From NCBI RefSeq assembly GCF_000732485.2, contig NZ_JAQV02000009.1, positions 1 to 64,000 on the forward strand: a DNA stretch of 64,000 bases, in the 5' to 3' direction. This stretch comes from Bacillus sp. SJS (GTDB lineage: Bacteria; Bacillota; Bacilli; Bacillales; Bacillaceae). The translations under genes and the position numbers were made by a program. This document shows positions 16,703 through 37,799 of the stretch, one piece after another; within the stretch, counting starts at the first letter, position 1, and every line of letters begins with the position of its first letter. Below the pieces are notes generated by a model. It made no database searches. It saw only the letters and a program-made list of their open reading frames with translations, and was not told where the DNA came from.

Positions 16703-16828
16703 TGATGGAGGGGTATTTATCTTGAATGACTGAAAAATTCATCATAAACCACCGGAAAGTCTGAATAACACTCTAGTCTTGACTTCGAAACGGCCATGCT
16801 TAAGGATTAGTGGCGGCTTTTATAGATA

Positions 16829-16855
16829 AAACCCCCGGGGATTGTCCCGGGGGTC
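16829..16855 (-). terminator. Terminator of the phenylalanine dehydrogenase operon
   Basis: ACCCCCGGG / CCCGGGGGT (16831-16853) is a very stable GC stem, followed on the minus strand by TTTTAT. It lies 24 bp after the stop of the E3 gene. Confidence 0.9.
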
Positions 16856-16876: not shown

Positions 16877-18310
16877 TTAACGCTGGCGGGCAAGCTCTTT
16901 GGAAGGAGGCTTATGGATGGCGAGTCCTGCGAGATCCTCTACCGCTTCGAGCAGCCCTTCATTCATGCTTGGGTGCGGATAAAGAGGGAACGATAGGTCT
17001 TCCACCCTCGCCGCCATTTCAAGCGCAGTGATGCCGGTGCTGATCAATTCGGCCGCTCCGTTCCCCATTAAATGGATGCCAAGAATGACCTCATTTTCTG
17101 CATCAGAAACCACTTTGGCAAATCCGTCTTTTTGCCCTGAAAGAGAAGCGAAGCCGTTTCCTGCAAAAGAAAACATCCCTGTCTTTACTTTATGTCCCCC
17201 AGCTTTCGCTTCTTCTTCTGTTAACCCCGCACAGGCGATTGGCGGCTGGCTTCGGATGACCATCGGAATGAACCCGTCATTCCATTCGGCTGGAAGTCCG
17301 GCAATAGATGCGGCTGCGGCTTTCCCCTGACTGATCGCTTTGACAGCCAGCTGAATTCCGCCTGTAATATCGCCGATTGCCCAAATATGGGATAGGGATG
17401 TCCGGCATTCCCGGTCAACCTGCACGAAGCCCCGGGAATCTGTTTTCATGCCAAGACGGTTCAGCCCTAGCTCCTCTGAGTTGCCCTGAAACTCCGTCTG
17501 TAAATAAAGATGTGTTCCTTCAATTTCAAGCTCTGTTCCATCATCTGCTTTAAATAAAGCTTTCAGGGTGCCCTCCTGTTTCAGGGCTTGCTTGAGTTCC
17601 ATTCCCTGCTTCCATTTGATTTTCGTTTTTTTCATAACCCTTATAAGCTCTTTCTCTATGGAAGCATCCAGTCCCGAAAACCCGTGTTCATGAACCAGGG
17701 TGACCTCGCTGCCCAAAGACCGGTAGCTGAATGCCGCTTCAATCGCCGTATAATCGTTTCCATATAAAATCAGATGTTCCGGTAAGCTTTCAAGGCTGTA
17801 CAGGGATCTCGAATCCAGAATATATGGTGGATCTACTGCAGCGGCTGAATGAGAAACAGGGGAGGTTCCGGCTGCAATGATGGCGGCTTTGAATGAATAA
17901 ACCTGAAAATCATCTCCGTTTTCCACTCCGATCCGATCATCAGATAAAAACGACGCTTTCCCTCTGATCAGCTCCACCTTATGCTGCCGGCAAAGTGCCT
18001 CCACTCCTTTTCTCAAATTGGCTGTCACTTGATTTTTGTATTCAGCGGTTTGAGAAAGGTCAAATGAAACGTGGGACATGCTGATTCCCAAGCCGCCCAT
18101 TTTAGAAAGCTCTCCATATTTGGCCGATACGTGGGCGAGCACCTTCGATGGGATACAGCCCTGATTTAGGCAAACACCGCCAAGGTCCCCCTTTTCAACC
18201 AGGGTAACCTCCTTCCCAAGCTGTGCAGCCCGGATTGCCGCTGTGTAGCCTCCGGGTCCCCCGCCGATGATGACCAGTTCTCTTTCCTGCGCCAATTCTC
18301 CGACTACCAT
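16877..18310 (-). CDS. Dihydrolipoamide dehydrogenase (E3) of a 2-oxoacid dehydrogenase complex
   Basis: FAD- and NAD-dependent E3 subunit, 477 aa, reoxidising the lipoyl arm of E2. The FAD-binding GGGPGGYTAAIRAAQLG is near residue 16, the redox-active disulfide GGVCLNQGCIPSK near 45, and the second dinucleotide part near 180-270. The C-terminal interface has PHPSMNE with the active-site His. The NAD-site GxGxxG is degenerate (LYGNDYTAIEAA), so cofactor use deserves care. Its ATG shares a base with the E2 stop codon (TAATG). It is the last gene of the operon with the thioesterase, phenylalanine dehydrogenase, E1alpha, E1beta and E2, so it probably serves a phenylpyruvate complex. The name lpdV is used for the branched-chain version in B. 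subtilis. Confidence 0.92.
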   Translation of the reverse strand: MVVGELAQERELVIIGGGPGGYTAAIRAAQLGKEVTLVEKGDLGGVCLNQGCIPSKVLAHVSAKYGELSKMGGLGISMSHVSFDLSQTAEYKNQVTANLRKGVEALCRQHKVELIRGKASFLSDDRIGVENGDDFQVYSFKAAIIAAGTSPVSHSAAAVDPPYILDSRSLYSLESLPEHLILYGNDYTAIEAAFSYRSLGSEVTLVHEHGFSGLDASIEKELIRVMKKTKIKWKQGMELKQALKQEGTLKALFKADDGTELEIEGTHLYLQTEFQGNSEELGLNRLGMKTDSRGFVQVDRECRTSLSHIWAIGDITGGIQLAVKAISQGKAAAASIAGLPAEWNDGFIPMVIRSQPPIACAGLTEEEAKAGGHKVKTGMFSFAGNGFASLSGQKDGFAKVVSDAENEVILGIHLMGNGAAELISTGITALEMAARVEDLSFPLYPHPSMNEGLLEAVEDLAGLAIHKPPSKELARQR

Positions 18311-19491
18311 TACACCAGCTCCACAATCAGCAATTTGGGATGTTCTATCAGTTCTTTAAACCGGTTTGTAAACGCGACTGCCGCCGCCCCGTCCGCGACC
18401 CGGTGATCGAAGGACATGGACACGTTCATCATTAAACCAATCACAATCTCCCCGTTTCGGACAACAGGCTTTTCCTTCGTCGTATGGAAGGCCATTAATC
18501 CGGTTTCCGGATGATTAATGACAGGAGTGGCTCCTATGCTTCCAAGCGGTCCAACGTTGCTGATGGTGAACGTTCCGCCCGTAAGCTCCGACCGGATCAA
18601 ACGGTTTTCTCTCGCTTTTTCATTCAATTCCTTCATCTCTTTATGAATTTCCAGGATCGATTTCGTTTCCACCTGGTGCAGCACCGGTACGATTAGCCCA
18701 TCCGGCGAATCAACGGCAAGGCCGATGTTGTATTCCGATTCAAGGACAATGACTTCCCGTTCTTCATCAAGCTTGGCGTTGAATACAGGAAAGTCCTTTA
18801 ATGCCATGGCAGCAGCCTTGATAAAAAAAGCGGCGGCCGAAATGGAGCGGCCCGCTTCCTTCAGTTCGTTTCTGAAGGTCATTAGCTCTGTCATATCGAC
18901 TTCTTCAAAATGGGTAACATGCGGAATCGTTTTGAGGGAATGAACCATTCTCTTCGCGATTTGCTTTCTTCTTCCCTTGAATGGAATGGTCTGCTTTTGA
19001 CCTTTTGTCACCGGCACGGCTGCAGGTTTTTCTTCTGCCGCAGGCGCTTCCTTCACCGGTTCCGGCTGCTCTTGCTTCGCTGCAAGACCCAATACATCTT
19101 CATCCGTCACTCTTCCTGCGGGTCCGGTGCCCTTGAGCTGTTCAATATCAATCCGGTTTTCCCTTGCAAGCTTTCTCGTAAAAGGAGTGGCGAGCACTCT
19201 GGCTGAAGCTGGCCGGGTCTTAGGAGTGCTTTCCTTTATAGGGACTGCTCCTCCTTCGTCCGTCTCAATGACAAGAAGCGTCGTTCCTACCGATACCGTT
19301 GTCCCGGGTTCTATAAGAATTTCTTTCACGACCCCCGCCCCCGGAGAAGGAAGTTCTGCCGTCATTTTGTCCGTTTGCACTTCGATGAGGGGCTGATCCC
19401 GTTCGACTCTCTCTCCGTGTTTAACGAAATAGTGAAGAATGTCTCCCTCTGTCATACCCTCTCCAATATCATGAAGCTTGACTTCCAGCAT
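18310..19491 (-). CDS. Lipoyl acyltransferase (E2) of a 2-oxoacid dehydrogenase complex
   Basis: A 393-aa E2 core. Residues 1-76 are one lipoyl domain (GEGMTEGDILHYFVKHGE, lipoylated Lys in VQTDKMTAE). Residues ~105-145 are the peripheral subunit-binding domain (ATPFTRKLARE...GTGPAGRVTDEDV). A proline/alanine-rich linker follows, and the catalytic domain (~165-393) ends with SFDHRVADGAAA, containing the acyltransferase His and Asp. In this setting it would transfer phenylacetyl groups from E1 to CoA, giving phenylacetyl-CoA. A broader branched-chain role is possible, because the family does not reveal acyl specificity by motif. Family assignment is firm and the substrate is inferred from the operon. 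Confidence 0.92.
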   Translation of the reverse strand: MLEVKLHDIGEGMTEGDILHYFVKHGERVERDQPLIEVQTDKMTAELPSPGAGVVKEILIEPGTTVSVGTTLLVIETDEGGAVPIKESTPKTRPASARVLATPFTRKLARENRIDIEQLKGTGPAGRVTDEDVLGLAAKQEQPEPVKEAPAAEEKPAAVPVTKGQKQTIPFKGRRKQIAKRMVHSLKTIPHVTHFEEVDMTELMTFRNELKEAGRSISAAAFFIKAAAMALKDFPVFNAKLDEEREVIVLESEYNIGLAVDSPDGLIVPVLHQVETKSILEIHKEMKELNEKARENRLIRSELTGGTFTISNVGPLGSIGATPVINHPETGLMAFHTTKEKPVVRNGEIVIGLMMNVSMSFDHRVADGAAAVAFTNRFKELIEHPKLLIVELV

Positions 19492-19509
19492 CTTTCCACC
19501 CGCCTCCCT

Positions 19510-20511
19510 TTAATAGTGAATGACTTTTTCAACCGCCTGAATGATTCGTTCCGTATCAGGAAGATAGTGCTCCTCCAGTGAAAAAAATGGAACAGGTACA
19601 TCAAAACCGCTCACTCTTGTAATCGGTGCCCGCAGGTATAGAAAAGACGTATCATTGATAACACCCATCACGTCATTTGCCAGTCCCCCGGTAGCATGTG
19701 CTTCCTGAACGATAACCGCTCTGCCTGTTTTCTGCACAGATTCTGCTATCGTTTCTTTATCCAGCGGATAGAGTGTTCTTAAATCAATCACTTCACAGCT
19801 GACTCCCGTCTGCTCAAGCTTCTCGGCAGCCTTGGAGGCCTGGACTGCCATCGCTCCCCAGGCGATCAGGGTCACGTCGCTGCCCTCTCTCCGCCTGGCC
19901 GCTTTCCCGATTTCCACTCTGTATTCACCCTCCGGCACCTCTTCCTTGCCTGCACGGTAGAGCCTTAACGGTTCAAGGAAGAGAACGGGATCCGGATCTT
20001 CGATGCTTGCGATGAGCAAGCCTTTTGCATCATATGGAGTGGACGGACAAACAACCTTCATTCCAGGCATGTGGGTAAACAGGGCTTCTGCGCTGTCAGA
20101 ATGAATTTCCGGCGCCCGTATTCCGGCACCGTACGGAGCTCGGATCACCATTGGAACCGTGTATTTCCCCATCGTTCTCATTCGGATTCTGGTTGCATGG
20201 GTTGCGATTTGCTCATACGCCGGATAGATAAATCCGAGGAACTGGATCTCCGCTACCGGAATCATCCCATTGATTGCCATGCCGATTGCAGTCCCCATTA
20301 GCCCCGCTTCACTTAGCGGGGTATCCATCACCCGCTCTTCCCCAAACTCCTCCATCAGCCCTTCTGTTGCGCGGAATACCCCGCCGTTGCTGCCGATATC
20401 CTCGCCAAGCAGCACCACTTCTTCCTTCTTTTGAAGCATCGTACGGAGACCATCCGTAACAGCCTGAACCATTGTCAGCTTGTTTGTTTTCACTCTCATT
20501 TCCATACTCAT
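19510..20511 (-). CDS. 2-oxoacid dehydrogenase E1 beta subunit (phenylpyruvate candidate)
   Basis: A 333-aa transketolase-like E1beta subunit forming the thiamine-diphosphate active site with E1alpha. Typical segments are LGEDIGSNGGVFRATEGL near residue 36, DTPLSEAGLMGTAIGMA near 63 and IRAPYGAGIRAPEIHSDS near 125 with the conserved His. It overlaps the E1alpha gene by 4 bp (ATGA), giving coupled equimolar expression. It resembles both PdhB and BkdAB; there is no ptb or buk in the operon, unlike the B. subtilis branched-chain cluster. Confidence 0.93.
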   Translation of the reverse strand: MSMEMRVKTNKLTMVQAVTDGLRTMLQKKEEVVLLGEDIGSNGGVFRATEGLMEEFGEERVMDTPLSEAGLMGTAIGMAINGMIPVAEIQFLGFIYPAYEQIATHATRIRMRTMGKYTVPMVIRAPYGAGIRAPEIHSDSAEALFTHMPGMKVVCPSTPYDAKGLLIASIEDPDPVLFLEPLRLYRAGKEEVPEGEYRVEIGKAARRREGSDVTLIAWGAMAVQASKAAEKLEQTGVSCEVIDLRTLYPLDKETIAESVQKTGRAVIVQEAHATGGLANDVMGVINDTSFLYLRAPITRVSGFDVPVPFFSLEEHYLPDTERIIQAVEKVIHY

Positions 20512-21578
20512 CGGCCTGCACCTCTTATTTGGTTCATGTATTCTTCCTTCTGCTCCCGAATCGTCCAGGTTGGCTCCGCAAATACATGGTCAAACAAATC
20601 ATTGACATCAGGCGGAGGGAAGGCTTCCATTTCGGCAACGGCTCCTTCGATCTGTTCCTCTGCTTCCTTTTGCACGAGGTTAGCCCAATCGTCCTCCCAG
20701 ATTCCCTCATTTTTCATATAGCGCTCAAGCCGGAGAAGCGGATCGATCGTCCTTTTTTTGCTCAGGCTTTCCTCCTGATTTCTGTACTTCTTCGGATCGT
20801 CCGCTGTCGTGTGGGCACCGTATCTCCACGTCACGGCCTCAAGCAATGTCGGCCCCTCTCCTTGCCTGGCGCGTTCGAGAGCCTGTTTCGTATAAAAATA
20901 AACCGCGAAAATATCATTGCCGTCGATTCTGTAGCCCGGAATGCCGTAGGCAACAGACTTCTGAGCTATTGTCCTAGAATTCATCTGTTTTTCAATCGGC
21001 ACGGAAATCGCAAAATGATTATTTTGATTAAAAAAGACAACCGGAGATTTAAAAACACTCGCAAAATTAAGTCCCTCGTGGAAATCTCCTTCAGAGGTCG
21101 CCCCATCGCCAAAATAAACGATGGCGGCATTGCCGGTTCCTCTGCGTTTCTCAGCAAGAGCCGCCCCCGCAGCATGCGGAAGCTGGGTGGCAATCGGTAC
21201 AGCCGGAGGAAAAATTCGTTTCCCGCTTGGAACGGTGCAGCCTTCCATTCTTCCGTTCCAATACAACAAAACATGCGGAAGCGAGTGGCCGAAGGTAATT
21301 GCGGCAGCATGGTCACGATAGGTCGGAAACAGCCAATCGCGTTCCTTCAGAGCAGAGGCGCTGCCGACCTGCGCCGCTTCCTGGCCTTCAAACGGAGCAT
21401 ACGTGCCAAGGCGCCCCTGTCTTTGCAGAGAGATCGCTTTCCGGTCAAACGTCCGTACGAGAATCATTTTTTCATACATTTCCTTTGTAAGAGACTCTGA
21501 GATATAGGATTTAAATTCCTCGTTTACAAGATTCCCGTTTTCATCCATAATCTGAATCATTTCAAATCCGTTTTCCAT
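20508..21578 (-). CDS. 2-oxoacid dehydrogenase E1 alpha subunit (phenylpyruvate candidate)
   Basis: A 356-aa E1alpha carrying the thiamine-diphosphate motif GDGATSEGDFHEGLNFASVF (about residues 155-174) followed by NQNNHFAISVP. It decarboxylates a 2-oxoacid and acylates the E2 lipoyl group. The N-terminal segment YAPFEGQEAAQVGSASAL is of the pyruvate dehydrogenase type. It lies 15 bp downstream of phenylalanine dehydrogenase, whose product is phenylpyruvate, so phenylpyruvate is the most economical substrate. Substrate pocket residues cannot be read safely from sequence alone. Confidence 0.93.
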   Translation of the reverse strand: MENGFEMIQIMDENGNLVNEEFKSYISESLTKEMYEKMILVRTFDRKAISLQRQGRLGTYAPFEGQEAAQVGSASALKERDWLFPTYRDHAAAITFGHSLPHVLLYWNGRMEGCTVPSGKRIFPPAVPIATQLPHAAGAALAEKRRGTGNAAIVYFGDGATSEGDFHEGLNFASVFKSPVVFFNQNNHFAISVPIEKQMNSRTIAQKSVAYGIPGYRIDGNDIFAVYFYTKQALERARQGEGPTLLEAVTWRYGAHTTADDPKKYRNQEESLSKKRTIDPLLRLERYMKNEGIWEDDWANLVQKEAEEQIEGAVAEMEAFPPPDVNDLFDHVFAEPTWTIREQKEEYMNQIRGAGR

Positions 21579-21593
21579 GCTTTCCCCTCCGCG

Positions 21594-22742
21594 TTATCGT
21601 TTAACGTTCCACTTCGGTTTCTGATTTGCCGTAAAAAAGCTGCTGCGATTCTTTCTTGCTTCAATCCGCTGTTCACAGAAAAGATCCGCGGCTTCTGCTG
21701 TACAAATGCTACGGTCCTCGGAATGTTTGTAGACCTCTAAAAGGGAGGTGTAAATGGCTTTTGTTTTCGTCAGCACCCGCTGCTTATTCGGGCCGTACAG
21801 CTCATCGGCCACTTGAATCAGTCCTCCGGCATTCACGATGTAATCCGGGGCATAAAGGATCCCCCTTCTCCAAAGGTCCCCTCCGTGCTCCTCCCTTTCG
21901 AGCTGATTATTGGCAGAGCCCGCTACCGCCTTCACCTTCAGCATCCCGATTGTATGATCATTAAGTATTCCTCCAAGGGCACACGGAACGAAAACATCAG
22001 CATCCACTGCATAAATTTCGTCACCCTTCACCGCCTTAACCGACCCCGGAAGCCCTTTTGCTTTTTGATTCAGCAGCTCGATCGCCGCTTCGTTAATGTC
22101 GGACACAAAGACATCTGCCCCTTCCTCAAGAAGACGCTCCGCCACCTTGAAGCCGACCTTCCCAAGCCCCTGAATGGCATACGTTCTTCCCTGAAGCGCA
22201 TCATCTCCCCAAACCGCCTTATTAGTGGCTTTAATGCCATAAATAACTCCGAGTGAAGTCGGAACAGAGGAGTCACCGCTGCCGCCGTATTCTTCAGGAA
22301 TGCCGACGATGCAATGCGTTTCCTTCGAGGCATGGACGAAATCCTCCGGTGACGTGCCCATATCCGTTCCCGTATAAAACCGGCCCTTCAGCGATTCGAC
22401 AAACTGCCCGAAAGCCCGGAACATTTCCGGTGATTTGTCTGTCAGCGGATCCCCGAGAATAACAGATTTCCCCCCGCCGAAATCCACATCCGCTGCTGCA
22501 CATTTATAGGTCATGCCTTTGGATAGCCGCAGAACATCATTCATCGCTTCATCTATATTGGCATATGGCAGCATTCTGCATCCGCCAAGTGCCGGTCCGA
22601 GAGTTGTGTTATGTATCGCGATAATCGCTTTTAACCCTGTATGGGGATCGTTGCAGAACACCACTTGCTCGTGTCCGCTGATTTTAGCGAATACATCCAT
22701 TCCCGCTGTCCCCCGTTCCTCCAATAAAGTAAACGCTTTCAT
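21594..22742 (-). CDS. pdh: Phenylalanine dehydrogenase (NAD+)
   Basis: Oxidative deamination of L-Phe to phenylpyruvate, NADH and ammonia. The protein has 382 aa; recalled bacillar enzymes (Sporosarcina ureae, Lysinibacillus sphaericus) are ~380. Catalytic lysines are K80 (GMTYKCAA) and K92 (FGGGKSVI). The stretch [19 protein letters not shown] has Cys and Asp-Val-Asp, where leucine dehydrogenases have Asn and Gly-Leu-Asn-Leu, and [15 protein letters not shown] replaces the leucine-type RYITAEDVGTT. The ending PKWNVKR is also the phenylalanine-type tail. [11 protein letters not shown] is the NAD loop near residue 190. ATG 22742 overlaps the thioesterase stop by 4 bp. It would supply phenylpyruvate to the complex encoded downstream. 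Leucine/valine dehydrogenase is the main alternative and is considered unlikely. Confidence 0.9.
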
Positions 22743-23146
22743 TTCCTTCCTCCCTCAAGAGCCTGCTGAATTTTTGAAGAGATTTCTTCCTTCTGCAGGA
22801 TGACCTGAACCACTTCTCCCTTTCCAATAAGCCTGTTATCCGTATACGCTTCAACATCCGTGTAAACCAGGTTTCTCTCTTTTTTCACAAGCGTTGCGAC
22901 CACCCGTACAAGCGACCCCTCACCCGCAGGCGCAATATGCTTCAGCTTTACCGAGGCCCCCATTCCCTCTTCCCAATCCTCCAAAAAAGGAAGAATGATC
23001 TTCCTCGATGCCCACTCCATACTGTGTACCATCGAGACAGTGGAATAGACGGGATGAACAACCTTCCCCTCAAATTGAGCGAACATATCCGGTGTAACCA
23101 TCACTTCGCAGGCAGCCTGGCAGCCAAGCTCCATCCCCTTTTTCAT
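22739..23146 (-). CDS. FlK-like hotdog thioesterase
   Basis: A 135-aa single hotdog-fold protein of the fluoroacetyl-CoA thioesterase (FlK) family. The FlK catalytic triad Thr42-Glu50-His76 has exact equivalents at T36 (PVYSTVSM), E44 (HSMEWAS) and H70 (LKHIAPA), all with the same -6 offset. It is the first gene of the Phe operon, directly behind the operator-bearing promoter, with AAAGGCGG before the ATG. In this context it may hydrolyse phenylacetyl-CoA or a dead-end acyl-CoA to free trapped CoA, as PaaI does elsewhere; the freed phenylacetate could be re-activated by PaaK. The substrate is inferred. Confidence 0.85.
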
Positions 23147-23198
23147 CTAACCCCGCCTTTACACGCTGAATTCGACATAATATTACAATAATTGTTAA

Positions 23199-23245
23199 TA
23201 ACGTTTATTTAACGCAATCTTATCATTTCGTTATATAATTTTCAA
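23199..23245 (-). promoter_or_regulatory. Promoter and PaaX-type operator of the Phe operon
   Basis: On the minus strand: TTGAAA (23240-23245), 17 bp, TAAGAT (23217-23222). The motif TAACGTTTATTTAACG (plus-strand reading, 23199-23214) begins 2 bp downstream of the -10, over the transcription start. The same 16-bp pattern and the same spacing occur at the paaA promoter, and a copy is present in the paaK leader. A repressor bound here would block open-complex formation or initiation. Confidence 0.75.
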
Positions 23246-23276: not shown

Positions 23277-24092
23277 TCATGCATTCAGCAAAGCCCTGTC
23301 ATTTGCCATCTGCTCGCCCCGTATTCGCTGGAACTCGCTCATTAATTTTTCAATAGTAAGCTCCTTTTTCTTCTCTTCATCCACTGATAAAATAATCTGC
23401 CCTTTATCCATCATGATCAGCCGGTTGCCAAGATCCAGCGCCTGCTGCATATTATGTGTCACCATAAGCGTCGTCAGTCCGTATTTGCTGACAATTTCCC
23501 TTGTTAAATTGGTAATGAGCTCCGCTCTGGACGGATCCAGTGCTGCCGTATGCTCATCCAGCAAAAGAATTGAAGGCTCTGTAAAGGTCGCCATCAACAG
23601 GGAAAGTGCCTGTCTCTCTCCCCCGGAGAGCATGCCGACTTTGGCATTCATGCGATCCTCAAGGCCAAGATGCAGCGATTCTAGCGACTCTTTAAAAAAG
23701 TCACGGCGTTTTTTTGTAACCGCGGTTCCAAACCCCCGTTTTTTGTTTCTCGAATAAGCCATCGCCAGATTTTCCTCAATAGTCATAGAAGGCGCGGTTC
23801 CTGCCATCGGGTCCTGGAAAACCCTACCGATCAGTTTGGAGCGCTTGTATTCAGGAAGCGCGGTTACATCCTTCCCTTCAATTTCAACGATACCGGTATC
23901 GGGCGGCAGGACGCCGGAAATCACGTTCATGACCGTTGATTTACCGGCTCCATTGCTACCGATGATGGTAACAAAATCGCCTTTCTCCAATGATAGATTA
24001 ATTGAATCGAGGGCGATTTTCTCATCGAGTGTTCCTTCATTAAAAATTTTGTTAATCTGCTTTAGATGCAGCAATGGCCTCCCCCTCTCCAT
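23277..24092 (-). CDS. ABC transporter ATP-binding protein (aromatic amino-acid type importer)
   Basis: ATPase of 271 aa. Walker A is GSNGAGKST near residue 46, the signature is MLSGGERQAL near 155, and Walker B is SILLLDEHTAALD near 175. It overlaps the permease gene by 41 bp. ATG 24092 has only a weak site; GGAGAGGGGGAGG just after it would favour a TTG start at 24074, so the first six residues are uncertain. It energises import through the neighbouring permease and lipoprotein. Members of this three-gene type (ABC_sub_bind family) in streptococci are tied to tryptophan or phenylalanine uptake. Confidence 0.9.
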   Translation of the reverse strand: MERGRPLLHLKQINKIFNEGTLDEKIALDSINLSLEKGDFVTIIGSNGAGKSTVMNVISGVLPPDTGIVEIEGKDVTALPEYKRSKLIGRVFQDPMAGTAPSMTIEENLAMAYSRNKKRGFGTAVTKKRRDFFKESLESLHLGLEDRMNAKVGMLSGGERQALSLLMATFTEPSILLLDEHTAALDPSRAELITNLTREIVSKYGLTTLMVTHNMQQALDLGNRLIMMDKGQIILSVDEEKKKELTIEKLMSEFQRIRGEQMANDRALLNA

Positions 24093-25101
24093 TTACACCG
24101 TGAAGGTCTTGCATCCGTTCTTTGTATCTCCGCGCTTTGCGTTTCTTCTGGCGGCGCTGCTCCATCACCTTTGGCATGATGAGGGCAAAAATAACAATCA
24201 CGGCGGTAATGAGCTTCAGATCACCGGTATCAAGCCCTTCGACTTGAAGAGAAAGACTGATCACGATGCGGTAGATGACCGCCCCGCCAATAACGGCAAG
24301 CGTCGTTCTCGCAATCGTTTTTGTTCCGAATATGGCTTCGCCGATAATGACAGATGCGAGACCAATAATAATCATTCCAATCCCCATGCCGATGTCCGAA
24401 AACTTGGCATATTGGGCAACGAGCGCTCCGGACAGGGCGACCAGCGCATTTGATAGCCCCAACCCCAAAATGATCAGGGAGTCCGTATTGGCTGAAAAAC
24501 TCCGGATCATCCGCTGATTGTCTCCGGTTGCCCGAATCGCCAGGCCTGTTTCTGTCTTAAGGAAGCGGTCTGTCAGCCATTTAATGAAAAATGTAACAAT
24601 CAGCATGAACAGGAGGATGCCCCATCCTGAAGGAAGACTGCCTCCGAGCCCTATACTTGAAAGCAGGCTGTTCAGAGGAGCATCAATGCCGATATTCTTT
24701 GTAAAATCAGAGATGGCTGTGAAAATCGTTTCCGAGTTTAGCAGAGGGATATTCGGAACCCCGATTGACGTTTCAGACGTCGTTCCCATAATCCGCAGAT
24801 TGATCGAATACAAGGCAATCATCATGAGTATTCCCGAAAGAAGCGGATTGATTTTTCCTTTCGTATGCAGAACCCCTGTCATACATCCCGCTGCGAAGCC
24901 GGCCGCAATCGAGGCAGCGGTCGCAGCAACTGGATTAAATCCCAGGACAATCATGGCGGCTGCCACAGAGGCACCCGTCACAAAGCTTCCGTCCACGGTC
25001 AGGTCGGGAAAATCCAGTACCCTGAAGGAAAGATAGACACCAAGCGCCATAATTGCATAAATAATGCCCAATTCTACTGAACCGAATAATGCAGAAAACA
25101 T
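24052..25101 (-). CDS. ABC transporter permease (aromatic amino-acid type importer)
   Basis: A 349-aa integral membrane protein with about 8-9 hydrophobic helices. It resembles permeases of the branched-chain amino acid/ABC_sub_bind type, with the N-terminal SFRVLDFPDLTVDGSFVTGA segment characteristic of the YckA/TrpY-like group. The C-terminus is a basic tail (QRRQKKRKARRYKER). It forms one operon with the binding lipoprotein (19 bp gap) and ATPase (overlap). The setting beside phenylalanine dehydrogenase supports aromatic amino acids as cargo. Confidence 0.9.
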   Translation of the reverse strand: MFSALFGSVELGIIYAIMALGVYLSFRVLDFPDLTVDGSFVTGASVAAAMIVLGFNPVAATAASIAAGFAAGCMTGVLHTKGKINPLLSGILMMIALYSINLRIMGTTSETSIGVPNIPLLNSETIFTAISDFTKNIGIDAPLNSLLSSIGLGGSLPSGWGILLFMLIVTFFIKWLTDRFLKTETGLAIRATGDNQRMIRSFSANTDSLIILGLGLSNALVALSGALVAQYAKFSDIGMGIGMIIIGLASVIIGEAIFGTKTIARTTLAVIGGAVIYRIVISLSLQVEGLDTGDLKLITAVIVIFALIMPKVMEQRRQKKRKARRYKERMQDLHGVNGEGEAIAASKAD

Positions 25102-25120
25102 GTTGAATCGCCCCTAACTG

Positions 25121-26116
25121 TTATTCCGTATATTCCGCCATTTTGTCCCATTCCGGCTTGATTTTGATTCCCATGGCTTCCGCTGCTTTTTTATTCATCA
25201 TCAGCTTCAGCTTGCCTGGCACCTCAACTGGAATTTCACCTGGTTTCTTGCCTTCAAGAACCTGCGCAGCCATTTCGCCTGCCTGATATCCAATATCATA
25301 GTATTGGAATCCATATGCCGCGAAAGCTCCCCGTTTGAGGGAATCGAGATCTGCCGTCAGCAGCGGGATTTTTTTGTCATTTGAAACGGAGACAACAGAC
25401 TCAATGGCTGAAATCACCGTGTTATCGGTAACGATATAAAAGGCATCCACTTTTCCGGCTAGTGATTCAGCAGCCTGCTTCACATCTGCGGTTGTGGATA
25501 CAGAGGCAGTGGCCGGTTCAAGGCCCAATTCCCCCATCACTTTTTTAACGGATTCAACCTGGGATACAGAGTTCTGCTCGCCGGCATTGTAGAGCATGCC
25601 TACTTTCTTGCCGCCAAGCTCTTCTTTTATGAATTTCATTGTACTTGGAATGGCTTCAGGGTGAGAATCAATGGTGCCCGTTACATTGCTGCCGGGTTTA
25701 TCAAGAGAGGCGACCAGCTCAGCTCCGACCGGATCTGTTACAGAGCTGAAGATGATCGGAATATCTTTCGTAGCACTTAATGCTGCCTGGGAGCTTGGTG
25801 TGGAGTTCGCAAAGATGAGATCGGGCTTCTGGCTCACCAGGGTCGTGGCGATCGTCGTATTCGTACTGGCATCGCCCTGGGCATTTTTTACATCAAATTC
25901 AGCTTTAATCCCTTTATCCTCGAGCGCTTTTTTGAATCCTTTATACGCATCATCCAAGGATGGATGCTCGACAATCTGGGTAACACCGATTTTATACGTT
26001 TTGCCCGCACCGTCACCGCCTGTTTCTCCGGAAGCGCCTTCTTTATTTCCGCAGCCGCTTAGCATCAGACCGGCTGCCACTGCCATACCCAGCCAAACTT
26101 TCGTTTTCTTCCCCAT
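25121..26116 (-). CDS. ABC transporter substrate-binding lipoprotein (ABC_sub_bind family)
   Basis: A 331-aa lipoprotein with signal peptide and lipobox GLMLSGC (Cys22), then a glycine/glutamate linker and a two-lobe periplasmic-binding fold (IGVTQIVEHPSLDDAYKGF...). Family PF04392-type proteins of known structure have been found with bound tryptophan or phenylalanine (recalled), which fits the genes downstream: phenylalanine dehydrogenase and the paa pathway. It is first in the operon and preceded by a promoter at 26202-26230. The ATG follows AAAGGGGG. Specificity for Phe rather than Trp is inferred from the neighbourhood only. Confidence 0.9.
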   Translation of the reverse strand: MGKKTKVWLGMAVAAGLMLSGCGNKEGASGETGGDGAGKTYKIGVTQIVEHPSLDDAYKGFKKALEDKGIKAEFDVKNAQGDASTNTTIATTLVSQKPDLIFANSTPSSQAALSATKDIPIIFSSVTDPVGAELVASLDKPGSNVTGTIDSHPEAIPSTMKFIKEELGGKKVGMLYNAGEQNSVSQVESVKKVMGELGLEPATASVSTTADVKQAAESLAGKVDAFYIVTDNTVISAIESVVSVSNDKKIPLLTADLDSLKRGAFAAYGFQYYDIGYQAGEMAAQVLEGKKPGEIPVEVPGKLKLMMNKKAAEAMGIKIKPEWDKMAEYTE

Positions 26117-26255: not shown

Positions 26256-27224
26256 TTATTCTATACGGGTAGACGGTACCCGATAAACACCCAGTCTGCC
26301 GATCGTTTCCTCCATCTCTTGCTTCATACCCAAGATTAAATCCTTTACTGAAGGAACTTGTTTTATCAGCCCGGCAATTTGGCCGCTGTTCCAATACCCC
26401 TCTTGTTCATTGCCATGTATGGCACCAGCAATATGGAAATCCTCATTTGTTTGCTTATTGTATTCTTCAAGTGTCATCCCCTCGCGCTCCCGTTCGATGA
26501 TCAAGCCCGTGTAAGAATTTTTCAGGACCCTTCTCACCCGGCCAACTGAACGGCCAATAATCATCGTCCCCGCATCATCCGCCTCAAGAAGACGCTCTTT
26601 ATAAAGAGGAGAAAACGGCGCTTCCTTCGTCGCAATAAAACGCGTCCCCATCTGAACTCCTTCCGCTCCAAGGGCAAGCATTGCTGCAAGGGCCCTGCCA
26701 TCGCCGATCCCGCCGGCAGCCACCACCGGAATCTGTACAGCATCCACCAGCTGCGGAATCAGGGTAAGCGTCGTCGTTTCCAAAGGGGAATTCAAACCTG
26801 CCGCTTCATAGCCTTCACCAATTACGACATCAGCTCCTCCTGCCTCCGCCTTCCTCCCCTGTTTCACAGACGCCGTTACCGCCAGCACCTTTACCCCGTG
26901 CTCCTTAAAGTAAGGCGTGAACGGAGCCGGATTCCCGGCAGAAAGCGATACAGCATGCACCTTATGCTTAACAATCAACCCGGCAATTTCCTTTGCATGC
27001 CCGGACACTGAAAGAGCAATATTCACAGCAAAAGGGCGGTCCGTCCGCTCCTTCGTCTCCAGTATGATCCTTTCCACTTCATCGGGCGAGCGGGTACCCG
27101 CCCCAATCGTCCCAAGTGCACCAGCCTCAGAAATAGCCGCAGTCAGCTGAGCATTGCTGATGTTCCCCATACCGCCTTGGATGATGGGGACTTCGATATT
27201 TAAGATTTTGCATAGTTTGTTCAT
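26256..27224 (-). CDS. Nitronate monooxygenase / FabK-like FMN enzyme
   Basis: A 322-aa FMN-dependent TIM-barrel protein of the nitronate monooxygenase/enoyl-ACP reductase II group. The N-terminal VPIIQGGMGNISNAQLTAA, central PVVAAGGIGDGRALAAML (phosphate binding, ~residue 175) and GAEGVQMGTRF are family hallmarks. ATG 27224 follows AAAGGAGCACCCACC. It appears monocistronic between the ABC importer and the repeat region. Distinguishing FabK from nitronate monooxygenase by sequence alone is unreliable. A link to Phe catabolism is possible from position only. Confidence 0.85.
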   Translation of the reverse strand: MNKLCKILNIEVPIIQGGMGNISNAQLTAAISEAGALGTIGAGTRSPDEVERIILETKERTDRPFAVNIALSVSGHAKEIAGLIVKHKVHAVSLSAGNPAPFTPYFKEHGVKVLAVTASVKQGRKAEAGGADVVIGEGYEAAGLNSPLETTTLTLIPQLVDAVQIPVVAAGGIGDGRALAAMLALGAEGVQMGTRFIATKEAPFSPLYKERLLEADDAGTMIIGRSVGRVRRVLKNSYTGLIIEREREGMTLEEYNKQTNEDFHIAGAIHGNEQEGYWNSGQIAGLIKQVPSVKDLILGMKQEMEETIGRLGVYRVPSTRIE

Positions 27225-27446: not shown

Positions 27447-27573
27447 TGCACTGACCCCCGCTCTGCTAAAGCGCGAAACCTCCGTCCCCCCTGCTGTTCA
27501 AGTCAGTTGGGATAACGGTCGACGCACTCTATGCTTGTTCCCCCAGTGCGTTACTATACTGAGGGTCAGTGCA
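27447..27573. repeat. 127-bp element with 11-bp terminal inverted repeats, copy 1
   Basis: Bounded by TGCACTGACCC (27447-27457) and GGGTCAGTGCA (27563-27573), a perfect 11-bp inverted repeat. It has the same length as, and ~80% identity by eye to, copy 2, which starts two bases after this copy ends. It has no coding frame of its own and looks like a MITE or REP-like element. Confidence 0.85.
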
Positions 27574-27574
27574 C

Positions 27575-27701
27575 TGCACTGACCCCCGCCCTGCTAAAGC
27601 ACGAAACCTCCGTCCCCCCTTCTTTCCAAGTCAGCTGGGATAAGGGTTCGTCCGCTCCTTGCTCATTCCCCCGGCGCGTTGCTGTGCTGAGGGTCAGTGC
27701 A
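27575..27701. repeat. 127-bp element with 11-bp terminal inverted repeats, copy 2
   Basis: Same ends (TGCACTGACCC / GGGTCAGTGCA), same 127-bp length and shared blocks such as CTGCTAAAGC, GAAACCTCCGTCCCCCC and GGTCAGTGC. A single C separates it from copy 1. It ends 26 bp before the paaX stop codon, so it also forms the paaX 3' trailer. Confidence 0.85.
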
Positions 27702-27727: not shown

Positions 27728-28630
27728 CTACTTCTCCTCCACCAGCAAAGGATGCTGAAACACGTCATATTCGGAGTCCTTATTGGTCAGCTCATTGCCC
27801 TCTTGGAATACCTCTTCAAAGAAGCGGCTTGCCGGTTCGGCGAGTTCCCGGTAGTAGCTGCTGAAAAGGGAGGCGGCGTGGCTGCCTAGCCATTTTTCAG
27901 GGAGCAGTTCTTCGGGAAGACCGGGGTCGCTGAATAGGAATTTGCGGTATTCGTGGACGAGTTTTGTGCGTTCGACGAAGCATTCGGCGTCGGTCATTTC
28001 GCCTTTTTGGATTTTGTTTTTGTCGATGATGTATTTTTGGCTGTATTCGGCGATGAAGGCTTCGTAGCGGTTGTTGATTTCGTTTAGGTCCCAGCATTCT
28101 TCGACGAGCTTTTTGTTTTCATGGGGCCCGTCGTATTGGGATACGAAGAAGTGCACATATGGACGGATTTCATATTTGTCCATGAGGGCATAGACTTCTT
28201 TTGTCAGTTCGTTGGGGGATACCCAGCAGCTGTTGGCCATGGTTCCGAAGCCGCTCCAGACGAGTTCCTTGCGCAGTTCGTCGCGGATGGCGCGCTTTTC
28301 TTCCGGGATGGAGTAGATGAAGAGCCGCCATTTGCCGTCCCATTGATCGGGGCTGAGCTTGAAGATTCGCTTGGCTGCTTCCTCCATGCGGATGGAGCCG
28401 CGTTCAGTTAAAAAGTAGTGGCTTTTGTTGCCGATTTTTTTTGATGTGACCCAGCCCTGCTTGTTCATTCTTGAAATGGCGGCGCGGACTGACTGTTCGT
28501 TGTGCCCGAATTCCTTGAGGAGGCGGATCAGGCTCCCGATCCATATTTCATTGCCGTAATGACGGATGTAATCTCCGTATAAAGTAAAGATCATCGATCT
28601 CGTGTTGATGGTGCTGTTCATTGCGTTCAC
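27728..28630 (-). CDS. paaX: PaaX, phenylacetyl-CoA-responsive repressor
   Basis: GntR-like repressor of phenylacetate genes, 300 aa. The N-terminal winged helix includes TRSMIFTLYGDYIRHYG and EFGHNEQSVRAAISRMNKQG, the helix-turn-helix of the family; the C-terminal PaaX domain includes WDGKWRLFIYSIPEEKRAIRD. In E. coli PaaX leaves DNA when phenylacetyl-CoA is bound. The start is GTG 28630 or ATG 28621; GAGAG upstream does not decide. It lies between the Phe block and the paa genes on the same strand. A TTGACA/TGTCAA inverted repeat precedes it (28670-28697), but the paa operator motif does not. It is the best candidate to bind the 16-bp motif found at three promoters. Confidence 0.93.
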   Translation of the reverse strand: MNAMNSTINTRSMIFTLYGDYIRHYGNEIWIGSLIRLLKEFGHNEQSVRAAISRMNKQGWVTSKKIGNKSHYFLTERGSIRMEEAAKRIFKLSPDQWDGKWRLFIYSIPEEKRAIRDELRKELVWSGFGTMANSCWVSPNELTKEVYALMDKYEIRPYVHFFVSQYDGPHENKKLVEECWDLNEINNRYEAFIAEYSQKYIIDKNKIQKGEMTDAECFVERTKLVHEYRKFLFSDPGLPEELLPEKWLGSHAASLFSSYYRELAEPASRFFEEVFQEGNELTNKDSEYDVFQHPLLVEEK

Positions 28631-28707: not shown

Positions 28708-29484
28708 TTACTTGCCCATAAATTCGGGAGCCCGTTTTTCGGAAAAGGCGAGAAGCGCTTCTCTTCTGTCATAGGTTGGAATGGTTTGCTCGTATGCTTC
28801 CGCTTCAATGTTCAGGCCGCTCTCCAGATCCGTTTCCATTCCAGCTCTGATCGCGTATTTTGCCTGCTCCACCGCAACGGGTCCGTTTCTTAAAATTTCC
28901 TGGGCGAGGTGCTCGCACTCCTTCATCAATTCCGGTCCCGGGACGGTCCTTGTTAAAATACCGTACTGATAAGCCTGCTCGGCATCCATTTTTCTTGCGG
29001 TCAGAATCAGTTCCTTTGCCCGGGCTTCGCCAATTAAACGAGGCAGCCGCTGTGTTCCTCCCGCTCCGGGAATGATAGCCCAGCTTGTTTCCGTCAGGCC
29101 CATTTTCGCATGACCGGCTGCAAGACGGAAATCACAGGCAAGCATCAGCTCGAATCCTCCGCCAAATGCGTAGCCGTTAACTGCCGCAATGGTCACCTGA
29201 GGGAGCTTGGAAATTTCATGAAAGACGGTTCTGATTTTGAGCACATTGCGCCGAACGTCATCTTCGCCAAGTGTGAGTCTTTCCTTTAGATCAGCGCCGG
29301 AGCTGAAGGATTTATCGCCGGCCCCTGTAAAAATGACAACCCTGATTTCCCGGTCATGACGAAGTTCCTCAGTCAATACACCGAGCTCAGACAGCATCTC
29401 AAAGTTAAAGCAGTTCAGCGATTCGGGACGGTTCAGGGTGACATACGCAATTCCGTTTTTCTTTTCAAAAATCAGGTTTTTCAA
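28708..29484 (-). CDS. Enoyl-CoA hydratase (paa cluster)
   Basis: Crotonase-fold hydratase, 258 aa. Both catalytic glutamates are in place: GYAFGGGFELMLACD and MGLTETSWAIIPGAGGTQRL. The oxyanion-hole segment is SFSSGADLKER. TTG 29484 follows TAGGAGGAAACGCG. It is the last gene of the paaH-paaJ-ech unit and probably hydrates an unsaturated dicarboxyl-CoA intermediate after ring opening (PaaF-type step). Alternatively it supplies the oxepin-CoA hydrolase activity missing from the aldehyde dehydrogenase. Confidence 0.88.
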   Translation of the reverse strand: MKNLIFEKKNGIAYVTLNRPESLNCFNFEMLSELGVLTEELRHDREIRVVIFTGAGDKSFSSGADLKERLTLGEDDVRRNVLKIRTVFHEISKLPQVTIAAVNGYAFGGGFELMLACDFRLAAGHAKMGLTETSWAIIPGAGGTQRLPRLIGEARAKELILTARKMDAEQAYQYGILTRTVPGPELMKECEHLAQEILRNGPVAVEQAKYAIRAGMETDLESGLNIEAEAYEQTIPTYDRREALLAFSEKRAPEFMGK

Positions 29485-29495
29485 CGCGTTTCCTC

Positions 29496-30692
29496 CTATT
29501 CAATGTTTTCAATAATTGTCGCAATACCCTGCCCTACGCCGACACACATGGCGGCGAGTCCGAATTGAACGCGCTGCCTTTTCATTTCGTATAAAAGGGT
29601 CGTTAAAATTCGCGCTCCGCTTGCTCCGAGGGGATGGCCGAACGCAATGGCGCCGCCGTTGACGTTGACCTTCTGCCGGTCCAATCCGAGTTCCTTTATG
29701 CATGCCAGCGATTGGGAGGCGAAGGCTTCATTCAGTTCTGTCAGCCCAATATCGCCGACGGTTAGGCCGGCACGGGACAGCGCCTTTTTTACAGCATGCA
29801 CCGGTCCCATTCCCATGATGGACGGTTCGAGACCGGCAACCGCTGAAACCTTGTATTTTGCGAGCGGCTGTAATCCAAGCTCTCTCGCTTTCTCTGAGCT
29901 CATCATCAGCAGGGCAGCCGCCCCGTCATTTACTCCAGATGCATTTCCTGCTGTTACGGTACCACCCGGAAACAGCGGCTTGAGTGATGCCAGTTTTTCG
30001 AGAACCGTTTCCGGACGGGGATGTTCATCCTGAACCACCGAATGTTCATTTCCTTTTCGGTCGCGGATGGAAACCGGAATGATTTCCTGCTGAAACCGGC
30101 CGCTTTCCATTGCTTTTGCCGCTTTCATCTGACTTTCATAGGCAAACTGATCCTGTTCCTCTCTTGTGATGCCAAACTGCTGCGCCACGTTTTCGGCCGT
30201 TTCCGGCATGGAATCTGTGCCGTACTTCTCTTCCAGCCTTCTATTGATAAAGCGCCATCCAATGGTTGTATCCAGCAGCTCCATGCTTCCTCTTGGAAAA
30301 TCAGATTCGGGCTTGCCCATCACGAATGGCGCGCGCGTCATGCTTTCCGTTCCGCCCGCAATGTAAATATCCCCTTCTCCTGCTAAAATGGCCCTTGCCG
30401 CATAGTTTACGGCATCTAGTCCTGAACCGCACAGCCGATTGATGGTGGTGCCGGCCGTTTCAACAGGCAGACCGGCAAGAAGCGCGGACATGCGCGCGAC
30501 GTTTCGGTTATCCTCTCCCGCCTGGTTCGCACATCCGAATACGACTTCTTCAATGCCTTCTACCCCTTTGTTCCGTTCAAGAAGTCCTCTTATGACAATC
30601 GCACCTAAATCATCTGGCCGAATGGTTTTTAGAGCCCCTTTATACCGGCCGATCGGCGTCCGGAGGGCATCAACAATGACTGCTTCATGCAC
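29496..30692 (-). CDS. paaJ: Thiolase, 3-oxoadipyl-CoA/3-oxo-5,6-dehydrosuberyl-CoA type
   Basis: Type II thiolase of 398 aa. The acyl-enzyme Cys is in NRLCGSGLDAVNYAARA near residue 90, and NVNGGAIAFGHPLGASGARI and AAMCVGVGQG give the His and second Cys near the C-terminus. Within the paa pathway such a thiolase cleaves the ring-opened C8 intermediate and later 3-oxoadipyl-CoA to succinyl-CoA and acetyl-CoA. GTG 30692 follows AAGGAGGAACC. It lies 14 bp from paaH in the same unit. A general acetyl-CoA acetyltransferase is the alternative reading. Confidence 0.9.
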   Translation of the reverse strand: MHEAVIVDALRTPIGRYKGALKTIRPDDLGAIVIRGLLERNKGVEGIEEVVFGCANQAGEDNRNVARMSALLAGLPVETAGTTINRLCGSGLDAVNYAARAILAGEGDIYIAGGTESMTRAPFVMGKPESDFPRGSMELLDTTIGWRFINRRLEEKYGTDSMPETAENVAQQFGITREEQDQFAYESQMKAAKAMESGRFQQEIIPVSIRDRKGNEHSVVQDEHPRPETVLEKLASLKPLFPGGTVTAGNASGVNDGAAALLMMSSEKARELGLQPLAKYKVSAVAGLEPSIMGMGPVHAVKKALSRAGLTVGDIGLTELNEAFASQSLACIKELGLDRQKVNVNGGAIAFGHPLGASGARILTTLLYEMKRQRVQFGLAAMCVGVGQGIATIIENIE

Positions 30693-30706
30693 AGCAGGTT
30701 CCTCCT

Positions 30707-31561
30707 TTATTTATCTGTGTAGTCATAAACGCCTTTCCCTGATTTGCGTCCGAGTCTTCCCGCTTTCACGTATTGAACAAGGAGCGGTGCCGGTCTGTAC
30801 TTTTCTCCAAGCGTGGCATGCAGATAGTTCAGGTTATTCAGCCTTGTATCCAGCCCTACAAGGTCTCCAAGCTCAAACGGCCCCATCGGATAGTTCAGCC
30901 CGAGGCGGATGGCTTTGTCGATTTCTTCTGCCGAACCGACGCCTTCCTGAAGCATGTAGAACGCTTCGTTCCCGACGAGGGCACTGATTCTGCTCGTGAC
31001 AAAGCCCGGGAATTCATTGATCATAACGGTTTCCTTCTTCATTTTTTTGGCCGCAGCCTGAATCGCATCAGCCGTCTCATCGCTCGTTTCAAGGCCTCTG
31101 ATGATTTCAATGAGAGGCATTTTATGTACAGGATTGAAAAAGTGCATCGCGATGACGTTTTCCGGCCGCTTTGTAAAGGATCCGATTTCGGTCGGGCTCA
31201 TCGTCGAGGTGTTCGTAGCAAAAAGGCAATGCGACGGTGCATTGGCGTCGAATATCTCAAAAACCGCCTGCTTGATTTCTTTTTTCTCAGGAACAGCTTC
31301 TATTATCAGGTCAGCATGCTTTGCCGCCTCTTCAAGACTTGCGGAGTAGACCAGCCGCGCCTTTGCTTCAGCAGCCTGATCCTCCGTCATGATTTCCCGG
31401 CTGAGCGCCTTCCGGAAGATGAGATCAATTTCTTGTTTGGCACTCTCCAGTGCTTCTTCCTTCACATCTGCCAGCACAACCTGAAAACCGCCTGCAGCGG
31501 CTACATAGGCGATGCCTCTTCCCATAACCCCGGAGCCGGCAACCATTATTTGTTCGATCAC
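30707..31561 (-). CDS. paaH: 3-hydroxyacyl-CoA dehydrogenase (PaaH-type)
   Basis: NAD-dependent enzyme of 284 aa. The N-terminal Rossmann motif is VAGSGVMGRGIAYVAAAGG, the catalytic region is AMHFFNPVHKMPLIEII with His, and NEFPGFVTSRISA follows. In the paa pathway it oxidises 3-hydroxyadipyl-CoA. GTG 31561 follows AAAGGGGGAAACC. It is single-domain, unlike longer PaaH forms, and resembles 3-hydroxybutyryl-CoA dehydrogenase. It is the first gene after an internal terminator. Confidence 0.9.
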   Translation of the reverse strand: MIEQIMVAGSGVMGRGIAYVAAAGGFQVVLADVKEEALESAKQEIDLIFRKALSREIMTEDQAAEAKARLVYSASLEEAAKHADLIIEAVPEKKEIKQAVFEIFDANAPSHCLFATNTSTMSPTEIGSFTKRPENVIAMHFFNPVHKMPLIEIIRGLETSDETADAIQAAAKKMKKETVMINEFPGFVTSRISALVGNEAFYMLQEGVGSAEEIDKAIRLGLNYPMGPFELGDLVGLDTRLNNLNYLHATLGEKYRPAPLLVQYVKAGRLGRKSGKGVYDYTDK

Positions 31562-31582
31562 GATCGGTTTCCCCCTTTTATA

Positions 31583-31622
31583 GAAAAAAGGCGAGCGGCC
31601 CCCAAGATGGGAAAACGCTCGC
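31583..31622 (-). terminator. Internal terminator between the aldehyde dehydrogenase and paaH
   Basis: GCGAGCG (31591-31597) / CGCTCGC (31616-31622) with six T residues on the minus strand. It splits the paa genes into an upstream unit (paaA to aldehyde dehydrogenase) and a downstream unit (paaH-paaJ-ech). No clear promoter was found between, so partial read-through may set the lower level of the second unit. Confidence 0.85.
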
Positions 31623-31637
31623 TATTGGACTTGCCTT

Positions 31638-33155: not shown

Positions 33156-33173
33156 GTTCATCACTCCTGATTT

Positions 33174-33947: not shown

Positions 33948-33956
33948 ACAGACCCC

Positions 33957-35025: not shown

Positions 35026-35045
35026 GTTCATCTTCTCCTTTTTTT

Positions 35046-35537: not shown

Positions 35538-35553
35538 TTGTGTGAATGCCCCC

Positions 35554-36728: not shown

Positions 36729-36743
36729 GTGGTCAACCCCCTG

Positions 36744-37715: not shown

Positions 37716-37738
37716 CGCAATACCCCTTTCAAATTATA

Positions 37739-37785: not shown

Positions 37786-37799
37786 TAATTTTCCTAAAG

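Follow-up and report, generated by a model that had tools for sequence, protein, structure and literature searches.

A putative arylpyruvate dehydrogenase operon beside the phenylacetate degradation genes of Bacillus sp. SJS

Introduction

The first 64,000 nucleotides of contig NZ_JAQV02000009.1 of Bacillus sp. SJS (assembly GCF_000732485.2), a stretch referred to here at its full length as the window, raise the question of which substrate is served by a 2-oxoacid dehydrogenase complex encoded together with a phenylalanine dehydrogenase (PheDH). The operon concerned runs on the minus strand from position 23146 to 16877 and comprises, in this order, genes for a FlK-type thioesterase, PheDH, E1alpha, E1beta, E2 and E3. 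With a probability put at about 0.83, comparative sequence analysis indicates that this operon would provide an aerobic entry, linked to nicotinamide adenine dinucleotide (NAD) and coenzyme A (CoA), of phenylalanine into the phenylacetyl-CoA pathway, by way of a paralogue of the pyruvate dehydrogenase (PDH) and branched-chain 2-oxoacid dehydrogenase (BKD) complexes devoted to arylpyruvates.

Results

Organization of the operon

The six coupled open reading frames (ORFs) listed in the initial annotation were all found on the minus strand at the same coordinates, with each product scoring above the Pfam gathering score for its own family. The genes are tightly coupled, with the thioesterase and dehydrogenase genes overlapping by 4 bp, the dehydrogenase and E1alpha genes being separated by 15 bp, the E1alpha and E1beta genes overlapping by 4 bp, the E1beta and E2 genes being separated by 18 bp and the E2 and E3 genes overlapping by 1 bp.

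22739 to 23146, minus strand: FlK-type hot-dog thioesterase, first gene (PF22636, 110.5 bits; cut-off 27)
21594 to 22742, minus strand: L-phenylalanine dehydrogenase (Pfam ELFV dehydrogenase family)
20508 to 21578, minus strand: E1alpha of the proposed arylpyruvate dehydrogenase (PF00676, E1_dh)
19510 to 20511, minus strand: E1beta (Transket_pyr and Transketolase_C)
18310 to 19491, minus strand: E2 acyltransferase (lipoyl, E3-binding and 2-oxoacid_dh catalytic domains)
16877 to 18310, minus strand: E3 dihydrolipoyl dehydrogenase (Pyr_redox), divergent, with a TIGR01350 score of 399.5 bits, slightly below the curated cut-off of 408.8
16827 to 16854, minus strand: GC-rich hairpin and T-run after the E3 gene, read by eye; probable intrinsic terminator closing the operon

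The dehydrogenase is of the phenylalanine type

Fourteen catalytic and pocket residues have been named, with their numbers, for the PheDH of Bacillus badius (PMC8543943). All 14 are present in the window dehydrogenase, with the numbering shifted by two. The genome of B. badius NBRC 15713 was itself found to contain an orthologous, syntenic operon, the dehydrogenase of which likewise carries 14 of the 14. The window enzyme shares 67.5% identity with this B. badius operon enzyme and 48.4% with the leucine dehydrogenase (LeuDH) of its own genome, which differs at four of the 14 positions (F86L, G123A, V144T and L306V). Among 69 operon dehydrogenases from 67 loci, G123 and L306 are invariant, while position 144 is valine in 59 and asparagine in 10. 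In a tree of these enzymes, four LeuDH rows formed a separate, starred group, apart from the operon dehydrogenases. The earlier assignment of the enzyme to the phenylalanine rather than the leucine type is hence borne out, as are the phenylalanine-type signatures as far as the pocket is concerned. Lysines 80 and 92, which had been counted among those signatures, were discarded as discriminators, since both (K78 and K90 in the published numbering) are shared by LeuDH.

In the B. badius enzyme, the window dehydrogenase thus has an orthologue that has been studied as a biocatalyst, with the operon context going unmentioned in the available part of that report (PMC8543943). As a separate observation, in two Paenisporosarcina loci (L054 and L076) the thioesterase gene is flanked on either side by a gene for a PheDH paralogue.

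The E1 forms a clade apart from PDH and BKD

The three catalytic components retain what is expected of a 2-oxoacid dehydrogenase complex, namely, the thiamine diphosphate motif of E1 (GDG..NN), the lipoyl lysine (TDKM) and catalytic motif (DHRVADG, matching DHRxxDG) of E2 and the redox disulfide (C47/C52) and histidine-glutamate pair (H446/E451) of E3. Across loci, regular expressions detected DHRxxDG in 75 of 76 E2 proteins and the lipoyl DK in 72 of 76. The same approach matched the E3 motifs in just 35 and 38 of 54 linked E3 proteins; when aligned columns were considered, C47, C52, H446 and E451 proved to be conserved in 54 of 54.

The window E1alpha shares 42% identity with the PDH E1alpha and 38% with the BKD E1alpha of the same genome. 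When 105 rows were placed in a quick tree (81 from the clade, two PDH and 22 BKD), the 81 clade rows came together with a Shimodaira-Hasegawa-like approximate likelihood-ratio (SH-aLRT) value of 99, outside both PDH (100) and BKD (96). The window protein accordingly falls outside the PDH E1alpha group, represented in this tree by only two rows, and PDH is the nearest outgroup of the clade. The operon does not belong with branched-chain systems either, its E1 clade being distinct and genes for LeuDH, ptb and buk being absent from it. The paa-linked clade is distinguished from the PDH and BKD proteins of the same genome by 30 E1alpha columns; several of these are common to the branched-chain 2-oxoacid dehydrogenase of Thermus, and no substrate rule was drawn from them.

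The closest relative of known structure for the window E1alpha is that of the Bacillus/Geobacillus-type PDH complex (1w85), which has the same E1alpha/E1beta, E2 and E3 architecture. The window complex differs from that system in its separate clade and in being encoded with PheDH, beside paa genes and with a palindrome shared with paaA. One could nonetheless take it for a surplus PDH or branched-chain complex of the usual kind, travelling with paa genes by chance, given that PDH is its nearest outgroup and that the NCBIfam PDH E1-alpha model, TIGR03181 (cut-off 411.35), scores the window E1alpha at 483.2, the genome's own PDH E1alpha at 466.9 and its BKD E1alpha at 340.4. This model fails to separate the clade from PDH, and databases name the window E1alpha a pyruvate dehydrogenase. 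Curated NCBIfam models were dropped as a means of naming the complex, E1alpha being called PDH and the thioesterase being left without a family at an E value of 1e-3.

Other routes encoded in the same genome

The 4.15-Mb genome also holds a PDH operon and a bkd operon, the latter arranged as bkdR (so named by presumed likeness), ptb, the LeuDH gene, buk, E3, E1alpha, E1beta and E2, with ptb and buk above their curated cut-offs. The reported absence of ptb and buk from the window operon holds, with both lying next to the LeuDH gene in this separate operon. Relative to bkd, then, the window operon has PheDH and the thioesterase, lacks ptb and buk, and encodes an E1 of a distinct clade.

Arylpyruvate:ferredoxin oxidoreductases (IorAB) are ferredoxin-linked and of another architecture than PDH-type complexes. 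In anaerobes, they convert arylpyruvates to arylacetyl-CoA (PMC5109826), the same type of conversion as is proposed for the window complex. In the window genome, no IorA (best match 71.6 versus 650.9 bits) and no phenylpyruvate decarboxylase of the IPDC family (124.5 versus 554.5 bits) scored above the curated cut-off. As such, the window complex is the sole dedicated candidate for acting on phenylpyruvate among the enzymes tested for, a search that did not extend to other routes, such as decarboxylation of phenylalanine itself.

The operon is linked to, and co-occurs with, paaA

Synteny was considered in the best 80 of at least 596 E1alpha relatives retrieved in a scan of species genomes, using neighborhoods of 10 kb on either side, six of which are truncated. 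As only the top E1alpha matches were kept, this set is biased toward near relatives. A PheDH-type dehydrogenase lies within 3.5 kb of E1alpha in 66 of the 80 loci and a FlK-type thioesterase within 4 kb in 63. Within the full neighborhoods, E1beta was seen in 79, E2 in 76, PaaX and a nitronate-monooxygenase-like gene in 62 each, the transporter binding protein described below in 48, and at least one of paaA, paaB, paaC, paaD and paaX in 65. Apart from four loci that resemble the hpa-linked regions considered below, 11 further loci show no paa genes in view; nine of the corresponding genomes could be searched and eight contained PaaA elsewhere. In two loci of this appearance (L022 and L040), a permease-like gene lies downstream of the operon and a likely Lrp/AsnC-type regulator upstream, with Pfam confirming the two genes in L022 only. 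Bacillaceae-type operons were also found in records labelled Pseudomonas (L013) and Chryseobacterium (L034), which suggests that these records are mislabelled or contaminated.

Co-occurrence was assessed in 259 genomes sampled evenly from the order, with clade membership of E1alpha defined as at least 425 bits and at least 55% identity. Clade E1alpha was present in 102 genomes and PaaA in 107, with both in 96, E1 only in six, PaaA only in 11 and neither in 146. Six genomes with only a weaker E1 match (47-52%) were excluded; when counted, the figures become 98, 10, 9 and 142. Fisher's test returned 4e-50, a value that ignores relatedness. In a check on kinship using genus lists compiled by hand, E1 followed PaaA in every member of 13 of the 16 genera that are mixed for PaaA, and in 63 of 67 genomes overall. 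Within the family to which the window belongs, the same six of 80 genomes, that of Bacillus sp. SJS included, have E1 and PaaA. Both genes lie on one contig in 83 of the 96 genomes (median distance 16.6 kb) and within 30 kb of each other in 76.

A palindrome is shared by the operon and paaA

The upstream regions of the loci (250, window included) have in common the motif ATAACGTT-N5-AACGTTAT, two instances of which concern the window.

23198 to 23218, strand not assigned: 21-bp palindromic putative operator, 52 bp before the thioesterase gene (ATTGCGTTAAATAAACGTTAT, minus strand), 2 mismatches to ATAACGTTN5AACGTTAT
37738 to 37758, strand not assigned: same 21-bp palindrome, 23 bp before paaA, 2 mismatches

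Genome-wide, only six sites have at most two mismatches (2.0-3.3 expected by chance); two are those above, another three fall within ORFs and the last is not covered by any ORF. Among the loci, a score of at least 12 of 16 was reached in 44 of 59 upstream regions of the thioesterase gene (4.9% of shuffles, which keep letters only) and in 20 of 40 upstream regions of the transporter (5.0%), counts that are partly circular, since these regions helped find the motif. Lower proportions were obtained before paaX (1 of 38; shuffles 2.0%), E1alpha (3 of 31; 2.1%), the dehydrogenase gene (4 of 28; 2.0%) and the nitronate-monooxygenase-like gene (8 of 50; 2.5%). A score of at least 13 is reached by 97 sites in the loci, which total 1.65 Mb; of these sites, 47 precede the thioesterase gene, 20 the transporter, four the dehydrogenase gene and three paaA, with one each before the nitronate-monooxygenase-like gene, paaX and E1alpha, seven inside genes and 13 elsewhere.

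New upstream regions of paaA were then examined, drawn from 40 of the 107 genomes with paaA and having no 200-base words in common with the four loci from which paaA/paaK regions had entered motif discovery. Nineteen of the 40 score at least 13 of 16, as compared to 0.35% of shuffles, and in 16 of these 19 the site sits 18-47 bp before the PaaA match. The operon and paaA hence have the palindrome in common, as expected of members of a paa regulon. Because its gene accompanies the operon in 62 of the 80 loci, PaaX is the likely palindrome-binding protein.

That the complex is just a surplus PDH or branched-chain one becomes very unlikely at this point: PDH is already present in the genome, as is a bkd operon containing LeuDH, ptb and buk genes, BKD E1alpha is present in 259 of 259 genomes whereas the clade E1 tracks paaA, and the palindrome is shared with paaA.

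Sister operons are linked to hpa genes

In all six genomes positive for E1 and negative for PaaA, a strong match to HpaB (753-789 bits; cut-off 480.2), a protein of the 4-hydroxyphenylacetate (hpa) genes, is encoded at a distance of 9.5-15.6 kb from E1. HpaB matches were obtained in 39 of 59 genomes examined, 35 of them above the cut-off, and it is therefore the linkage of HpaB to E1, rather than its presence, that counts. The window genome is among these 35, a strong homologue lying outside the window at G000:C24:153756-155195. In six of six regions fetched, the gene set comprises a HisC-type aminotransferase, E1alpha, E1beta, an E2, an NhaC-type antiporter, an esterase, HpaE and HpaB, with HpaF/HpaG in five of the six. 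The aminotransferase gene immediately precedes E1alpha in L157, L158 and L162, with the antiporter gene coming between them in L159-L161; the E2 of L159 is best matched by the PDH E2 of the same genome, at 28%. Four loci of the synteny set (L072, L074, L080 and L085) resemble these regions, L080 and L162 being the same DNA. Curated models identified HpaG in both L072 and L085 (of the C-terminal type in the latter), as well as HpaE and HpaB in L085, and no PaaA match was found in the genomes of the four. The hpa-linked regions contain no match to the dehydrogenase, and the palindrome is absent upstream of hpa-type operons, where the best scores are 9-11 of 16 (nine regions, eight distinct).

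These operons of halophilic and related bacilli are probably a tyrosine version of the complex. The simplest reading is that one type of complex would act on phenylpyruvate where it is linked to paa, and on 4-hydroxyphenylpyruvate where it is linked to hpa. They also lend something to the possibility of a broad aromatic 2-oxoacid dehydrogenase acting mainly on 4-hydroxyphenylpyruvate or indolepyruvate, with phenylpyruvate being secondary, as do the TrpX-like nature of the transporter binding protein and the finding that 27 of the 30 distinguishing E1alpha columns are identical in all four hpa-linked loci aligned. Such a preference is unlikely for the window operon, given that the partner pathway includes PaaA in 96 of the 102 genomes with clade E1 and that a PheDH-type dehydrogenase is close by in most loci. 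Devotion to arylpyruvates, as preferred here, still means that the complex may accept arylpyruvates other than phenylpyruvate.

The thioesterase

Among solved structures, the first gene product is most similar to 2cwz, followed by FlK itself (3kv7). Its T36, E44 and H70 align with FlK chain positions 42, 50 and 76, that is, with T42, E50 and H76, which we take to be the catalytic triad of FlK. A loose T-x7-E-x20-32-H pattern was found in 63 of 63 thioesterases of the loci. The selectivity of FlK for fluoroacetyl-CoA is not expected in the window enzyme.

If the thioesterase hydrolyzed phenylacetyl-CoA at once, the operon would make free phenylacetate for export, leaving little for the paa pathway. 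Such a role would suit the first position of the gene and its frequent proximity to E1alpha; it is highly improbable in light of the linkage and the palindrome shared with paaA, and of the 17 of 80 loci with no such gene nearby. Within a catabolic operon, the enzyme would more plausibly recover CoA, a role ascribed to the thioesterase PaaI in a review of the phenylacetate pathway (PMC9493321).

Discussion

The comparative evidence, namely, the separate E1 clade, the co-occurrence with paaA, the linkage of sister operons to hpa, the shared palindrome and the orthology of the dehydrogenase, supports phenylpyruvate, or arylpyruvates generally, as substrate of the complex. In the route envisaged, a TrpX-like transporter would probably import the aromatic amino acid (phenylalanine), which PheDH would oxidatively deaminate to phenylpyruvate and NADH. 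The E1alpha/E1beta-E2-E3 complex would then decarboxylate phenylpyruvate with thiamine diphosphate and pass the phenylacetyl group via lipoamide to CoA, releasing NADH, and the phenylacetyl-CoA formed would be epoxidized by the Paa epoxidase of the adjoining cluster. The thioesterase would probably act as a relief valve, freeing CoA when phenylacetyl-CoA accumulates, while the palindrome, probably a PaaX operator, would co-regulate the operon and paaA.

In addition to the TIGR03181 score, several observations weigh against this proposal. By sequence, the nearest solved relatives of the window dehydrogenase are LeuDHs and not the Rhodococcus PheDH, although the matches (LeuDH, Glu/Leu/Phe/Val dehydrogenase, tryptophan dehydrogenase, Rhodococcus PheDH and glutamate dehydrogenase) included no Bacillus-type PheDH, so that the structure search could not place the latter. 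A linked E3 was seen in just 54 of the 80 loci. Eleven genomes have paaA and no clade E1, showing that the paa pathway does not need this E1, and in one genome that carries the operon (L062), paaA had no match. As to the palindrome, the single best match genome-wide has 1 mismatch and is located elsewhere (G000:C15:402358-402378), near a contig end and with no ORF of at least 90 residues over it; sites with at most three mismatches number 20, as compared to 24 for the reversed control, and are thus not in excess; and 21 of the 40 new paaA upstream regions score below 13. Finally, a PaaK homologue is retained at 37800-39113 (593.8 bits versus the curated cut-off of 646.3). The bypass of CoA ligase postulated in the initial annotation accordingly applies to the operon's own route and not to the organism. 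PaaK is given as the first step of the phenylacetate pathway in the review cited above (PMC9493321).

PDH-like complexes acting on phenylpyruvate are already known from antibiotic biosynthesis. PglB/C, involved in phenylglycine formation in Streptomyces pristinaespiralis, are PDH-like, with phenylacetyl-CoA derived from phenylpyruvate being the suggested precursor (PMC7089894), and a PDH-like complex is assigned to phenylpyruvate in ripostatin biosynthesis (as cited in PMC5490192). Like the window complex, these would yield phenylacetyl-CoA or phenylacetyl-carrier protein; they differ in serving biosynthesis rather than catabolism, and the available parts of these sources describe no PheDH or paa linkage in the same operon and no paa operator, the comparison resting on their published descriptions. 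The open-licence literature, as judged by titles and the beginnings of abstracts, yielded no account of such a complex in catabolism; this does not prove that none exists, most subscription journals lying outside that scope. What appears new here is the catabolic setting, together with the probable tyrosine/hpa sister version.

It is likely, although less firmly so than for the window operon, that a separate Bacillales class of arylpyruvate dehydrogenase is used as a module, either with PheDH and paa for phenylalanine, under the 21-bp operator, or with a HisC-type aminotransferase and hpa for tyrosine in halophilic bacilli. This would be a third way of turning aromatic amino acids into arylacetyl-CoA, besides decarboxylase, aldehyde dehydrogenase and ligase in series, and the ferredoxin oxidoreductases. 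In many soil bacilli, the operon would probably shorten the way into an aromatic degradation pathway of wide distribution, by an entry that is aerobic and NAD-linked, proceeds without releasing phenylacetaldehyde and spends no adenosine triphosphate on CoA ligation. If so, Bacillus-type PheDHs, biocatalysts of long standing, would gain a physiological pathway, the annotation of an E1 clade presently called pyruvate dehydrogenase would be corrected, and phenylacetyl-CoA or 4-hydroxyphenylacetyl-CoA could be made with a compact set of enzymes.

Neighboring genes

The following features lie upstream of the operon.

23277 to 26116, minus strand: TrpX-like ABC transporter (ATPase 23277-24092, permease 24052-25101, binding protein 25121-26116; PF04392; solved relatives 3lkv, 6hni and 3lft)
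26256 to 27224, minus strand: nitronate-monooxygenase/FabK-like flavoprotein (PF03060)
27728 to 28630, minus strand: PaaX, likely repressor (TIGR02277, 358.8 bits; cut-off 264.55)
28708 to 39113, minus strand: paa cluster encoding hydratases, a thiolase, a 3-hydroxyacyl-CoA dehydrogenase, an aldehyde dehydrogenase, PaaG-like and EthD-like proteins, PaaD, PaaC, PaaB, PaaA and the PaaK homologue

The transporter binding protein passes PF04392 and does not reach the TrpX equivalog cut-off (261 versus 390 bits). Its solved relatives are presumably binders of aromatic amino acids, and the transporter probably serves in aromatic amino acid uptake. In the paa cluster, PaaA, PaaB, PaaC and PaaD exceed their curated cut-offs, while the PaaG-like protein and the PaaK homologue fall below theirs. 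Between paaX and the nitronate-monooxygenase-like gene, positions 27447-27701 contain two tandem copies of a 127-nt repeat that are 83% alike.

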